From Clostridia bacterium (GTDB lineage Bacteria > Bacillota > Clostridia > Christensenellales > CAG-1252): 64,000 bases of DNA. A program made the position numbers and the translations under genes. This document shows, piece by piece, positions 59,535-63,990 of the stretch. The first letter of the stretch is position 1. Every line of letters starts with the position of its first letter. The notes beneath the pieces were generated by a model that saw only the letters and a program-made list of their open reading frames with translations, was not told the origin of the DNA and made no database searches. The stretch lies in assembly GCA_024685775.1 (NCBI GenBank), contig JAIKVL010000025.1, forward strand, positions 18,626-82,625. Reading direction: 5' to 3'.

Positions 59535-59870
59535 TTAGCCCTCTTCTTTGAAGGGAACGAAAGTCAAGCCGAAACTCTCCTCGACGGGGAGAGAAAAGAC
59601 GATGCCGCGTCCCGGCGTGTCGAGCCCTACGGCCTTCGAGATCTCTTTCATGACGTCCGCGCGGATCTCCTCTTTGACGAGGATGATCGCGACTTCTTTT
59701 TCTTCCTGAATGTTCATCGCGAAGAAACGCTTGGCTTTTTCGCCGCCCGTGCCGCGACCCGTCATGATCGTTCCGCCCGTCGCGCCCGAAGCGCGCGCCG
59801 CGTCCATGACGAGATCGGCAAATCCTTTATTGACGACGACGACGATCAAACTGCATTGTACTTCTTCCAT
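59535..59870 (-). CDS. P-II-like signalling protein (second copy)
   Basis: 111 residues. The P-II/GlnB-like fold (two beta-alpha-beta units) is suggested by SLIVVVVNKGFADLVMDAARASGATGGTIMTGRGTGG and the C-terminal DTPGRGIVFSLPVEESFGL, which matches the P-II nucleotide-binding B-loop region (TGxxGxGxIFxxPV). The T-loop is very short and its uridylylated tyrosine is not present, so covalent control as in enteric GlnB is unlikely. It follows another P-II-like gene one base before it. Probable effector of the DUF1538 membrane protein encoded at the start of the operon. Confidence 0.82.
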   Translation of the reverse strand: MEEVQCSLIVVVVNKGFADLVMDAARASGATGGTIMTGRGTGGEKAKRFFAMNIQEEKEVAIILVKEEIRADVMKEISKAVGLDTPGRGIVFSLPVEESFGLTFVPFKEEG

Positions 59871-59871
59871 A

Positions 59872-60210
59872 TCAAACCTCCGCTTCTTCCGCGAAACAGG
59901 AGAGGACCCTCTTGTCCGCGATGCTTTGAACGTGCAGGGTAAACGCGACCCCGCCTCCTTTTCCGATGTGAAACCGTTCTTCCAGCGCGCCTTTGACGTC
60001 CGGAACGAGCTCCGAATTGACGAGGAACGCGACCAAATCTTTGTTTATATCCCCGATCCCGAGGAGGTTGAGCCACTGCTGCTTCGCCGTTCCGTGTCCG
60101 AGCATCGCCACGAATCCGAAAGCGCGGTCGGAAAAATAGGCGCTTACGGCGTCTGCCTTTCCGCGTTCGACGATCGCGACGACCAAACTCAATCTCGTTT
60201 TCTTTTCCAT
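59872..60210 (-). CDS. P-II-like signalling protein (first copy)
   Basis: 112 residues from ATG 60210 (AGGAGAAAC before it). Same family as the neighbour, with LSLVVAIVERGKADAVSAYFSDRAFGFVAMLGHGTAKQQWLNLLGIGDINKDLVAFLV and HIGKGGGVAFTLHVQSI at the B-loop position. Compared with GlnB the T-loop region is replaced (GHGTAKQQWLNLLG). The two copies are only distantly alike, so they probably have different ligands or form a heteromer. Located ten bases after the DUF1538 stop. Confidence 0.78.
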   Translation of the reverse strand: MEKKTRLSLVVAIVERGKADAVSAYFSDRAFGFVAMLGHGTAKQQWLNLLGIGDINKDLVAFLVNSELVPDVKGALEERFHIGKGGGVAFTLHVQSIADKRVLSCFAEEAEV

Positions 60211-60220
60211 AGTTTCTCCT

Positions 60221-61852
60221 TTAATCGAGGTCGATGATCTCGATTTCTTCGGATTGTTGCTCCGCGATTTCGGCGGGAGCGTTAATCGCGCCGACTTCTT
60301 CAAGCGCGGAGGCGGGCTCCGCGGAGAGCTCGGGCAATTCTTCGATCTCTTCCGCAGCAAAGGCGGGGGCGGGGATCCGAGGCGCTTCCGTTTTCTTCTT
60401 TTCCGCGAGTTTCGCTCTCAAAGTTACGGTAAGCCCGAGCCCTTGCAGAACGATCAGCGGAGACATCGCGACCATCGCCACGAGCCCATAGGCGTATTTG
60501 ATGATATCCTCTTCTCCGTTGATCGCGAGACACGCGCCCGCCGCAAGAGGGAGAAGAAAAGTCGCCGTCATCGGCCCGCTCGCGACGCCGCCGCTGTCAA
60601 ACGCGATCGCCGTGTAACTCTTCGGCGTAAAAAAGGAAAGCAGGATCGCGATGGCGTAGCCGGGGAGGACGAGCCACCAAATGCTGAATCGGAAAAGGAT
60701 GCGGAGCATCGAAAGCCCGACGGACAGCCCGACGCCGATCATCAAGGTCAAAAGGACGTGCGTCTTTTTGATCGCGCCGCCGCTGATCTTTTCGATCTGA
60801 TCGTTCAGGACGTGGACGGCGGGTTCCGCCGCAACGATCATAAAACCGATCAGACAGCCGAGCGGAAGAAGGACGTAGCCGTGATTTTCGCCGAGCCGCC
60901 TTCCGATCTCTTCGCCCGCCGCGCTGAAACCCGCGTGCGCGCCCGTCATAAAGAGGACGAGCCCGAGATAGGTGTACAGCAAGCCGAAAACGATGCGCCA
61001 AAACGCCAAAACGGGCAAATTCTTGTTTGCGGAAAAGCGAAAGATCAGGAAGAAGACGGCGATCGGTCCGATCGCGATCGCCATGTCGCGAAGTTGATTC
61101 AGGAAAGTCAGTCCGTAGACCCGAAGAAGAGGACCGGAGAGGATCTCCGTTTCGGCGCGTACCGCCGAAACGTCCGAGAAAAGCCCGAGCAACATAACGG
61201 AGAGAAGAGGTCCGATCGACGCGAGCGCGACGAAGCCGAAACTTTCGTCCGTTCCCGTCCTGCCGCCGATCGCGGAAACGCCGACGCCCATCGCGATGAC
61301 GAACGGAACGGTCATCGGACCGGTCGTTACGCCGCCGCTGTCAAAAGAAAGAGGCAGGAACGCTTCTTTTCCGAGCAAGGTCAAGAGGAGCGCGAGCGCG
61401 AAGACGAGGGCGTAAGAGACGATCAAAAGAAGGCGAAGGGAGATCCCGAAGATCACGCGGAGCATCGAAAGCGCCAAAAACACGCCGACGCCGACCGCGA
61501 CGAGGGCGATCAAAAGCCATTTATTGATCGATGAGGAAAGCCCCGAAGCGAGGACGGAGAGATCGGGTTCGGCGACCGTTATGATCATTCCGATCAAAAG
61601 CGCGACGACGATGATCAGGGTAAGATTTCGTGTCTTCGTCGTCGTGGAACCGACCATTTCGCCGATCGGGATCATCGCGACTTCCGCGCCGATCGAGAAT
61701 AAACTCATTCCCGCGATCACGAGCGCGCAACCGATCAGAAAGGAAAAGAAAAGGCGCAAAGGCAAGGGCGCAAGGGTAAAAGAAAGGATCGCGACGAGGA
61801 TCGCGATGGGCAGAGTCGAAGCTAAACTTTCTTTTATTTTGGAAAAAATCAT
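60221..61852 (-). CDS. DUF1538-family polytopic membrane protein
   Basis: 543 residues, about 12-14 membrane helices in two clearly homologous halves. The family signature FDSGGVTTGPMT lies near residue 170 and its repeat FDSGGVASGPMT near 418; each is preceded by AEPD/AEPA (about 94 and 337). Such an inverted or tandem repeat with a conserved Gly/Thr-rich loop is typical of secondary transporters, but no substrate is known for the family. The C-terminal cytoplasmic tail (about 490-543) is acidic (EEIEELPELSAEP...EEIEIIDLD). First gene of an operon with two P-II-like proteins, which suggests ligand-controlled transport, as AmtB-GlnK and SbtA-SbtB are known examples. Confidence 0.85.
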   Translation of the reverse strand: MIFSKIKESLASTLPIAILVAILSFTLAPLPLRLFFSFLIGCALVIAGMSLFSIGAEVAMIPIGEMVGSTTTKTRNLTLIIVVALLIGMIITVAEPDLSVLASGLSSSINKWLLIALVAVGVGVFLALSMLRVIFGISLRLLLIVSYALVFALALLLTLLGKEAFLPLSFDSGGVTTGPMTVPFVIAMGVGVSAIGGRTGTDESFGFVALASIGPLLSVMLLGLFSDVSAVRAETEILSGPLLRVYGLTFLNQLRDMAIAIGPIAVFFLIFRFSANKNLPVLAFWRIVFGLLYTYLGLVLFMTGAHAGFSAAGEEIGRRLGENHGYVLLPLGCLIGFMIVAAEPAVHVLNDQIEKISGGAIKKTHVLLTLMIGVGLSVGLSMLRILFRFSIWWLVLPGYAIAILLSFFTPKSYTAIAFDSGGVASGPMTATFLLPLAAGACLAINGEEDIIKYAYGLVAMVAMSPLIVLQGLGLTVTLRAKLAEKKKTEAPRIPAPAFAAEEIEELPELSAEPASALEEVGAINAPAEIAEQQSEEIEIIDLD

Positions 61853-61879: not shown

Positions 61880-61909
61880 ATTATACCATATATAAAAGGT
61901 TCGTGTAAA
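61880..61909 (-). promoter_or_regulatory. Promoter of the DUF1538/P-II operon
   Basis: Minus strand: TTTACA (61909-61904), 18 bases, TATAAT (61885-61880). Confidence 0.7.
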
Positions 61910-61980: not shown

Positions 61981-61989
61981 TCTTTTATT

Positions 61990-62148
61990 CGGATAGAGGC
62001 GCGCGTCTTATGATAAACCGCAAAGCAGGCTCGTTTGCGGCGGGAAAGGAGGACGCGCCGAGGGTGAAAACGAAACCTGTGACCGTTTGATCCCGGGGCG
62101 CGAGAGAATATCTCGCGGACTGTCGCCGGAAAGGCGGAGAGCTATCGG
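61990..62148 (+). ncRNA. Lysine riboswitch (L box) aptamer
   Basis: The conserved elements are in order: GATAGAGGCGCG at 61992-62003, GGAGGACGCGCCGAGGG about 62048-62064, ACTGTCGCC near 62119-62127, and GGAGAGCTATC at 62136-62146. GATAG (61992-61996) and CTATC (62142-62146) form stem P1. In this class lysine binding stabilises P1 and lets the downstream terminator form, lowering expression. It sits in the 398-base gap between DUF1538 and nhaC together with both promoters; no other element was recognised there. Confidence 0.9.
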
Positions 62149-62167
62149 ACGGGACTTCTTCGGTTTG

Positions 62168-62195: not shown

Positions 62196-62250
62196 ATTGA
62201 AAAGCGTCTGATCGATCACAATGCGCCGCAAGGCGCGAAAGGAGAAAAAT

Positions 62251-63990
62251 ATGGTAGGTACTTTTTGGGCGTTCGTGCCCGCAATCATCGCGATCGTGCT
62301 CGCGCTTGTGACGAAGCAGGTTTATCTCTCGCTTTTCGCAGGTATTTTCGCGGGCGCAATGTTCCTCGCGGGCGGAAACCCGATCGAGGCGATTAGCAAT
62401 TTGTTTATAACGATGGGCGGTCAACTCGGCGGCAACGGCGGCATTTTGATCTTCCTCGTTATTCTCGGCATCTTCGCCGTCCTTATGGTCAAGACGGGCG
62501 GTTCGAAGGCGTACGGCGAATGGGCGACCGGTAAGATCAAGACCAAGAGAGGCGCGGAACTCGCGACCGTCGGTCTCGGCGCGTTGATCTTCGTGGACGA
62601 CTACTTTAACTGCCTGACCGTCGGAAACGCGATGCGCCCCGTGACGGATAAACACAAGGTCTCTCACGCGAAGCTCGCGTATCTTATCGACGCGACGGCG
62701 GCTCCCGTCTGCATCATCGCCCCGATCTCTTCTTGGGCGGCGGCGGTCGCGGGCTATGCGGACGGCGGTATCGTCGCGTTCATCAAAACGATCCCCTTTA
62801 ATATGTACGCGCTCCTTACGATCGGCTTTATGGTTTTGACCGTTTTGCTGCGTTTGGACTTCTTCAAAATGAGAAGAAACGAAAAGATCGCGAAAGAAAC
62901 GGGAGACCTCCTCGCGGGCGAGACCGATCTTCCGACCAAGGACGTAGAAGCGGACGAGAAAGTCAAAGGCAAGGTCATTAACCTCGTCTTCCCGATCGTT
63001 ACGTTGATCGTCTGCTGCGTCGGCGCGATGATCTATAACGGCTTTTTCTATGATTGGGACGCGTGCGTCGTCGGGACGGCGGTTCAATCGAAGAACGTCC
63101 TCGAAGCGTTCAGCAACTGCGACGCGGGCTCCGCGCTCGCGATGGGCTCTTTCATCGCGCTCGTCATTACGCTCGTCTTCTACCTCGTGACCAAAGCGAT
63201 CACTTTTAAGGCGAGTATGGAATCCATCGTGGACGGCTTTAAGTCGATGGTCCCCGCAATCCTTATTTTGACTTTCGCTTGGACGCTCGGCGGCATTATG
63301 GGCGCGAAGGGCGCGGGTCTCGACGATTTCGGCAAAGTGGTCGCGGACGGAACGCTCAACGCAAAAGCGTTCGTTCAGGCGAATATCACGGCGGACAGTA
63401 TGGCGCTCGGCGTGATCCCCTTCGTCTTCTTCCTGATCGCTTGCCTGCTTTCTTTCGCGACGGGAACTTCTTGGGGAACCTTCGGCGTCTTGATCCCGAT
63501 CTCGACCGCGGTCATGTCCGCGACGACGAGCGAAGGCTTGTTCTTCCTTACGATGTCCGCCGTTCTCGCGGGCGCGGTTTACGGCGATCACGTCAGCCCG
63601 ATCTCGGACACGACGATTATGGCGTCTTCCGGCGCGCAGTGCAATCATATCGATCACGTTAAGACCCAACTTCCCTATGCGACGATCGTCGCTTTGATGT
63701 CGGGTGTCGTCTACCTCGCGATGGGCTTCATTTGTTCCACGAAGGTCGGGCATTCTTACGGCGCGAGCGCGGGTATCACGCTTGCGATCGGCTTCGGGAT
63801 CCTCGCGGGCGTCATCGTCCTTTTGGCGATCCTGAACAAGAAAGGGATCATCGAGACGATGGATAACAAACTCTTGAATTTCTTCGCGAAACATCCCAAA
63901 GAGCGTCCGATCGAAGAAACGGTCCAAGGCGGTTCGGAAGTGACGGACGAGATCGAAGAAATGCAAAACGACGCGAAGATCGAAAAATAA
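62251..63990 (+). CDS. NhaC-family antiporter-like transporter, probable lysine transporter
   Basis: 579 residues from ATG 62251 (GAAAGGAGAA before it). About twelve helices of the NhaC/IT superfamily; landmarks are GLGALIFVDDYFNCLTVGNAMRPVTDKHKVSHAKLAYLIDATAAPVCIIAPISSWAA (about residues 108-165) and LSFATGTSWGTFGVLIPI with ISDTTIMASSGAQCNHIDHVKTQLPYA further on. NhaC-type proteins are annotated as sodium/proton antiporters, but members of this group that follow lysine riboswitches have been proposed as lysine permeases (LysW). The riboswitch here strongly supports lysine, or a lysine-coupled exchange, as substrate. The acidic C-terminal tail is polar and short. Confidence 0.9.
   Translation: MVGTFWAFVPAIIAIVLALVTKQVYLSLFAGIFAGAMFLAGGNPIEAISNLFITMGGQLGGNGGILIFLVILGIFAVLMVKTGGSKAYGEWATGKIKTKRGAELATVGLGALIFVDDYFNCLTVGNAMRPVTDKHKVSHAKLAYLIDATAAPVCIIAPISSWAAAVAGYADGGIVAFIKTIPFNMYALLTIGFMVLTVLLRLDFFKMRRNEKIAKETGDLLAGETDLPTKDVEADEKVKGKVINLVFPIVTLIVCCVGAMIYNGFFYDWDACVVGTAVQSKNVLEAFSNCDAGSALAMGSFIALVITLVFYLVTKAITFKASMESIVDGFKSMVPAILILTFAWTLGGIMGAKGAGLDDFGKVVADGTLNAKAFVQANITADSMALGVIPFVFFLIACLLSFATGTSWGTFGVLIPISTAVMSATTSEGLFFLTMSAVLAGAVYGDHVSPISDTTIMASSGAQCNHIDHVKTQLPYATIVALMSGVVYLAMGFICSTKVGHSYGASAGITLAIGFGILAGVIVLLAILNKKGIIETMDNKLLNFFAKHPKERPIEETVQGGSEVTDEIEEMQNDAKIEK

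Follow-up and report, generated by a model that had tools for sequence, protein, structure and literature searches.

Introduction

As reported for Halomonas zhaodongensis (PMC5484666), the DUF1538 proteins UmpA and UmpB act as a pair: each has seven predicted helices, and as a heterodimer they carry out Na+/H+, K+/H+ and Li+/H+ exchange in Escherichia coli KNabc, with K0.5 values of 0.26–0.46 mM and a pH optimum of 9. Neither "PII" nor "P-II" occurs in the main text of that paper. Proteins of the P-II family are known from other transporters: the parts of a 2023 review at hand (PMC10710835) list ammonium, nitrate, urea and bicarbonate carriers as targets, name no antiporter, and remark that P-II use is apparently restricted to transporters able to work as trimers. 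Here we describe a 64,000-nucleotide stretch of DNA from a Clostridia bacterium (contig JAIKVL010000025.1), referred to in the following as the window, in which a DUF1538 gene is followed by genes for two small P-II-like proteins, A and B. Taking sequence, models and analogy together, we think it probable that the DUF1538 protein is an UmpAB-related monovalent cation/proton antiporter, gated from the cytoplasmic side by A and B.

Elsewhere in the literature, DUF1538 appears in a table of Pfam families in the available part of a machine-learning study of growth pH (PMC13255231), and UmpAB homologues are cited for salt adaptation in the accessible parts of papers on cable bacteria. P-II was not mentioned on point in the main texts of the DUF1538 papers found, nor did searches that combined UmpA/UmpB with P-II and antiporters yield anything relevant, in a coverage that left most subscription papers and preprints outside.

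Results

The DUF1538 protein

The DUF1538 gene and the genes for A and B form one minus-strand unit with intergenic gaps of 10 and 1 nt (Table 1). These are the gaps given in the initial annotation, which had also placed the genes behind one promoter; a promoter-like site was indeed found by consensus match. PF07556 matched the DUF1538 protein twice, with 213 and 199 bits (405.5 bits for the whole protein; Pfam cut-off 22.6), and the duplicated signature halves that had been noted earlier were found as FDSGGVTTGPMT and FDSGGVASGPMT. The NCBIfam models scored 151.6 bits for UmpA (E 2e-44) and 135.1 bits for UmpB (E 3e-39), below their equivalog cut-offs of 490 and 500, respectively. By sequence, the protein looks like UmpA and UmpB fused into one chain, and it is itself likely to be a monovalent cation/proton antiporter. 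The earlier description of a channel with an unknown substrate is not supported, since UmpAB, a member of the DUF1538 family, is a measured Na+,Li+,K+/H+ antiporter. The DUF1538 protein of a named relative, "Christensenella sp. UBA4247", is 74% identical to that of the window.

An AlphaFold2 (AF2) model of the DUF1538 protein (predicted local distance difference test score, pLDDT, 89.8; predicted template modelling score 0.87) showed seven long helices in each half (7+7), with extra short helices at the AEP and FDSGGV signatures. An odd number of helices per half would set the two halves in opposite orientation, and the model would place the long C-terminal tail on the same side as the N-terminus, presumably the cytoplasmic one. 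In an alignment of 84 relatives, all of the fused kind, residues D171, T176 and T177 of the first signature and D419, S420 and S425 of the second were kept in every row, as were the acidic residues E95, D97, D171, E343 and D419. We found no relative in the PDB by sequence and no clear fold match there, although with a model of >400 residues single-domain matches could be missed.

A natural fusion of DUF1538 to P-II, sought as proof of contact, did not turn up among the matches listed (120 of 7994 DUF1538 homologues; P-II hidden Markov model (HMM), E up to 10). Three long homologues (P0197, P0198 and P0204) have internal repeats and are probably assembly artefacts.

Proteins A and B

Protein B is a P-II protein by its match to PF00543 (33.5 bits, cut-off 25), and a profile of its family matched solved P-II proteins, the best being 9p1x (E 1.6e-6). 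Protein A stayed below the same Pfam threshold at 13.3 bits, a score that was the same with or without one extra N-terminal residue. When compared with the B family by hhalign, A matched with 95.8% probability across 108 columns. Its AF2 model (pLDDT 76.6) has the beta-alpha-beta-beta-alpha-beta order of solved P-II-like proteins, with structural matches to PstA, GlnK, SbtB and CutA1, the top Foldseek match being PstA (4wk1, E 3.7e-4). Protein A is therefore predicted to belong to the P-II superfamily. The initial annotation had called both proteins P-II-like and had suggested structure prediction as a check; the claim holds for B by Pfam and for A by profile and by the predicted fold of the single chain. 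Neither protein matched PF06153, the DarA/PstA family, at E up to 1.

A T-loop tyrosine, a lysine in the GDGKIF B-loop and an RTGE end are features of the nitrogen-regulating P-II proteins GlnB and GlnK. Proteins A and B lack all three, as compared with the GlnK encoded in the same genome. Their T-loop segment, counted visually between the GxG turn and the following strand, has 16 residues in A and 17 in B, against 20 in the GlnK domain. The earlier statement that a GlnB-type T-loop was missing thus stands as far as the tyrosine site is concerned, but the segment itself is present in altered form. Likewise, the C-termini are P-II-like, as had been said of their B-loops, but the GDGKIF lysine is replaced by I in B and by V in A. 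Among the residues listed for this column, which cover 240 of 242 P-II domains and all seven P-II classes, there were I, V, L and M, all hydrophobic, and one gap.

Neighbourhood survey

PF07556 was searched in 61 relatives (35 matched), 398 genomes of the phylum (135 matched) and 14 control genomes (none matched). For the neighbourhoods, we took all 34 other matching relatives and 91 of the 134 other phylum genomes (127 loci; 43 phylum genomes left out), together with seven plasmid loci from nine matching records and one named contig. This gave 136 sources including the window, with 142 DUF1538 units, one of them a repeat, as L032 and L044 are seemingly the identical contig. P-II domains were sought up to 350 bases behind DUF1538, using HMMs built from homologues of the window proteins.

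A P-II gene lay directly behind DUF1538 in 136 of the 142 units, and two P-II domains were present in 107, so the doubling, which the initial annotation had regarded as unusual, is common. The count followed the build of the DUF1538 gene. Fused genes (n=85) had two P-II domains in 80 units, as one double protein in 52 and as two genes in 28; one had a single P-II, in a unit cut by a contig end, and four had none. Split genes (n=49) had one P-II in 22 units and two in 27; two of these, L147 and L150, resemble fused genes in pieces, and without them the split class would number 47 (22 with one P-II, 25 with two). Single DUF1538 genes (n=8) had one P-II in six units and none in two. Among the six units lacking P-II, L057 is the first of a tandem pair, L064, L130, L082 and L156 lie at contig ends, and L080 is a spurious 100-aa frame.

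The two families also occurred together across the 398 phylum genomes, 137 of which matched the B-type profile (E up to 1e-8). Both were found in 133 genomes (46 expected), DUF1538 only in two, P-II only in four and neither in 259 (Fisher p 2e-98, to be read with caution because the genomes are related). The two DUF1538-only genomes were G337, where the gene lies at a contig end, and G112. Genome G261 has a DUF1538 gene with no adjoining P-II, yet carries a double P-II at another locus (L183). In 19 further loci with P-II away from the listed DUF1538 place, 17 adjoined a DUF1538 gene, the exceptions being L177 and L183. In L183 (4892-7397), the neighbour of the double P-II is a divergent hydrophobic protein of 455 aa that Pfam does not match, and there is no DUF1538.

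On Alphaproteobacteria plasmids of Chelativorans and Methylocystis the order is umpA-umpB-P-II, so the pairing extends beyond one phylum. In three Clostridia records, the "P-II family nitrogen regulator" behind DUF1538 is one double-domain protein of 222-224 aa, and two Alphaproteobacteria records have a single annotated P-II behind split DUF1538. The initial annotation had called for such a survey, including the count of one versus two P-II partners, and its refuting condition, that the two kinds of gene are not neighbours in related genomes, does not hold.

Sub-types and the C-terminal tail

A phylogeny of 155 P-II domains (97 columns, no more than 22 per class, many forks open) separated the first P-IIs of fused operons by tail length, with one clade (99/90) for long-tail and another (98/96) for short-tail operons, the two jointly at 97/74. 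The first P-IIs of split operons made up a third group (93/96). Judging from these groupings, P-II may have been doubled more than once.

In the window, the tail of the DUF1538 protein (residues 513-543) had a pLDDT under 50. Taking tails of 25 residues or more as long, we found an acidic-hydrophobic motif (EIIDL, DEQIIEF, EVIDL) in 42 of the 48 long-tailed fused units with two P-II domains, compared with a mean of 8.7 and a maximum of 17 in 500 shuffles of the tails; both the motif pattern and the length limit were chosen after the tails had been seen. The motif was found in none of the 32 short-tail fused units and none of the 49 split units. With a stricter pattern, tried first, the count was 29 of the 80 fused units that carry two P-II domains; an EIIDL-like motif lay within the last 40 residues in 64 of the 84 alignment rows. 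The last match stood at most 6 residues from the end in 34 of 44 long-tailed units, and 15 to 76 residues from the membrane domain. Short, conserved and carried on the end of a variable linker, the peptide resembles a docking site, for which the P-II proteins would be the candidate partner. Against a common P-II model, the first P-IIs had a median of 76 in long-tail and 106 in short-tail units, the second P-IIs being alike. In one unit (L051), the motif is absent and both P-IIs sit on long branches, a single anecdote that favours a tether; five other long tails also lack the motif.

Charge was considered as well. Throughout the three doubled sets, the first P-II tends to be basic (medians +1 to +3) and the second acidic (-1.5 to -3.5), which would be compatible with a mixed complex without arguing for one. 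The idea that an acidic tail docks on a first P-II of basic character was rejected, as tail charge did not correlate with that of either P-II protein (rho -0.08 and -0.14).

P-II beside other membrane proteins

Two of the P-II-only genomes (G394 and G441) carry the P-II gene ~200 bases before a CitMHS/ArsB-type transporter gene (CitMHS ~300 bits; one of the two also above the NhaB cut-off). A search with the G394-type P-II in 82 genomes of its class matched 14 and added three such cases: P-II followed after 218 bases by the transporter (G376), the transporter followed after 69 bases by P-II (G515), and the transporter ~1.1 kb behind P-II (G486). No DUF1538 was found in the short loci of these three. 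The arrangement was thus seen in five genomes, in four within 220 bases and in one at ~1.1 kb. In G061, also a P-II-only genome, a divergent, weakly similar P-II (113 aa) directly precedes a PF00999 Na+/H+ exchanger (80.6 bits; L172 4266-5938). The P-II of another P-II-only genome (G105) was just a fragment. In G156, which has DUF1538 elsewhere, an extra P-II lies ~270 bases behind pntA- and pntB-like genes (L177 423-5050), a row in which P-II control of a proton-pumping transhydrogenase is possible. Diverse as they are, these partners all have the look of membrane machines coupled to ions or protons.

Two side observations belong here. A small P-II in L176 (262-639) resembles that of G061 by eye, and the pntB-like protein in L177 has 837 aa with three PNTB-matching stretches.

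Candidate signals

Cyclic di-AMP (c-di-AMP) has a role in potassium and osmotic balance. In one relative (G228, locus L114), a c-di-AMP riboswitch (RF00379, 74.9 bits, cut-off 38; 5698-5504, minus strand) followed by a strong terminator-like hairpin stands directly before a split DUF1538 (umpA-umpB)/double P-II operon, the transcription of which probably responds to c-di-AMP. A c-di-AMP cyclase (143 bits) is encoded in the window genome, where a PF06153 search found no PstA. Upstream of the window's unit, we found no riboswitch other than the lysine riboswitch of the neighbouring gene. In L080 (5991-7733), a c-di-AMP riboswitch precedes an asparagine synthase B gene just behind a P-II pair and does not stand before the operon. 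With regard to nitrogen, the window genome has a separate 580-aa protein in which an ammonium transporter and a canonical GlnK are joined (genome C35; L167 1468-3210, minus strand).

Surroundings in the window

The features of the locus are collected in Table 1. The window genome is a 1.7-Mb assembly of 38 contigs, 97% complete. Next downstream of the unit is asnS, with a weak promoter-like site of its own. Upstream and divergent from the unit lies a gene of a Na+/H+ antiporter family, for which the NCBIfam models of the Tet(35), NhaC and ArcD types all scored below their cut-offs; it is preceded by a lysine riboswitch, as were also found in the relatives' loci L042, L045, L047 and L048.

Table 1. 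Features of the DUF1538/P-II locus and its neighbours (positions in the window).
Feature	Positions	Strand	Basis
DUF1538 protein, 543 aa, UmpA-like and UmpB-like halves fused	60221..61852	-	PF07556 twice, NCBIfam, AF2 model
FDSGGVTTGPMT signature, half 1, residues 170-181, at break between two predicted helices	61310..61345	-	alignment A3, model
FDSGGVASGPMT signature, half 2, residues 418-429	60566..60601	-	alignment A3
C-terminal tail peptide EEIEIIDLD, residues 535-543, proposed P-II tether	60224..60250	-	low pLDDT, recurring motif
Small protein A (first P-II), 112 aa, divergent, predicted P-II fold	59872..60210	-	model, profile comparison
Small protein B (second P-II), 111 aa	59535..59870	-	PF00543 match
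Promoter-like site TTTACA-18-TATAAT with TG, directly upstream of unit	61880..61909	-	consensus match only, 11/12
asnS, asparagine--tRNA ligase	59480-58098		659 bits
Weak promoter-like site of asnS	59527-59499		
Na+/H+ antiporter family gene	62221-63990	+	PF03553, 143 bits
Lysine riboswitch	61986-62152	+	74.3 bits

Discussion

In the mechanism that we favour, the P-II proteins would form trimers, homomeric or mixed, and bind the antiporter as GlnK binds AmtB or SbtB binds SbtA, most likely to inhibit it. In the long-tail subfamily, to which the window belongs, the C-terminal EIIDL-like peptide might keep a P-II protein at hand, perhaps the divergent A. As the signal we envisage a nucleotide or other small ligand occupying the altered P-II site; c-di-AMP and the adenylate charge are possible candidates.

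Several observations weigh against gating of a cation antiporter in this manner. The trimer remark of the review conflicts with the heterodimeric UmpAB and reduces our confidence, and the sub-threshold UmpA and UmpB scores make the cation specificity of the window protein uncertain. Since the B-loop lysine is replaced by a hydrophobic residue, ATP binding of the GlnB kind is doubtful. As for c-di-AMP, a general role as transcriptional signal was considered and dropped, with one clear case (L114) among the 108 loci scanned. The proposed tether has its own difficulties: the motif is absent from 6 of the 48 long tails, first P-IIs are less basic in long-tail than in short-tail units, the charges of tail and P-II are unrelated, and the link between tail and divergent A may amount to a single event, because the long-tail first P-IIs form one clade. 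CitMHS-type transporters also include citrate and arsenite carriers. Finally, genomes G048 (85% complete) and G112 carry DUF1538 with no P-II over the cut-off, in G112 throughout the genome.

These last two genomes also speak against the P-II proteins being obligatory subunits of the transporter, needed for folding, assembly or the transport cycle and not acting as switches. Such a role would account well for the presence of P-II in nearly all units, the near-exceptionless co-occurrence, and the way the domain numbers track, the only fused unit with a single P-II being cut by a contig end. It is less easily squared with the P-IIs near unrelated transporters, or with the Halomonas clone: according to the accessible part of that report (PMC5484666), the clone held a truncated ORF1 and three whole open reading frames, the last two being umpAB, and sub-clones with umpAB alone were active. 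No Halomonas P-II gene is therefore needed for UmpAB transport, which fits P-II as a regulator, and we consider an obligatory role to be unlikely. The independence is not strict, because the E. coli host has P-II proteins of its own, as our control search showed; this too counts against our interpretation. About equally unlikely is that the window protein only resembles UmpAB and moves another substrate, such as an anion or organic solute. The scores below the equivalog cut-offs would allow this, as would the fact that we found one assayed DUF1538 pair in the literature; the common Pfam family and the five acidic residues kept in all 84 relatives, albeit all of the fused kind, speak against it.

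It is also conceivable, although rather improbable, that the two P-IIs, anchored on DUF1538, sense through it the state of ions or energy and signal to other targets in transcription or metabolism. The tail peptide would be suited to anchoring, and P-II proteins can have several targets, as the review states in the part available to us (PMC10710835). However, UmpAB is itself an efficient antiporter, and the window shows no additional regulator gene belonging to the unit. Ordinary nitrogen control, with A and B as GlnB/GlnK variants that tie the ammonium state to the transporter, appears very unlikely. Pfam does label B a nitrogen regulatory P-II, and database records name such genes P-II family nitrogen regulators, but the genome already has its ammonium transporter/GlnK fusion, A and B lack the three GlnB/GlnK features, and the partners found are cation- or proton-coupled systems.

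Beyond the gated antiporter, we tentatively suggest that a P-II branch named "nitrogen regulator" may be devoted to proton-coupled ion homeostasis, serving UmpAB-type antiporters and re-used beside CitMHS/ArsB-type carriers and the proton-pumping transhydrogenase, with two unequal P-IIs and an EIIDL-type tether in the long-tail form. If a P-II does control a monovalent cation/proton antiporter, salt and pH homeostasis would join nitrogen and carbon as fields of P-II signalling, a role could be given to many proteins that now bear the name of nitrogen regulators, and a proven antiporter family would gain a regulator. A DUF1538 gene is present in 135 of the 398 sampled phylum genomes, and the tail peptide is a candidate for a specific, removable handle on the contact between P-II and DUF1538.

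Compared with the known systems, the locus shares with UmpAB of H. zhaodongensis (PMC5484666) the PF07556 family and two homologous seven-helix parts, which form a heterodimer there and one fused chain here; the disordered tail peptide and the P-II genes behind are features of the window. Unlike SbtB–SbtA, which serves bicarbonate, and GlnK–AmtB, the window has an unrelated transporter with a tail peptide, and two unequal P-II chains with changed T- and B-loops. DarA/PstA, the c-di-AMP receptor, has the P-II superfamily fold in common with A and B, but these have no PF06153 match, and PstA has a short T-loop and a long B-loop according to the available part of its description (PMC6516651), unlike A and B. 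The plasmid genes for a "P-II family nitrogen regulator" behind DUF1538 in Clostridia and Alphaproteobacteria have the same arrangement as in the window and are known as annotated genes. A P-II protein beside a transporter is thus of a known kind; what is new is the class of transporter, the doubled and unequal P-II, the tail with its EIIDL-like peptide as a candidate tether in long-tailed fused DUF1538, the same P-II family near other ion- or proton-coupled membrane proteins, and one relative's operon behind a c-di-AMP riboswitch.

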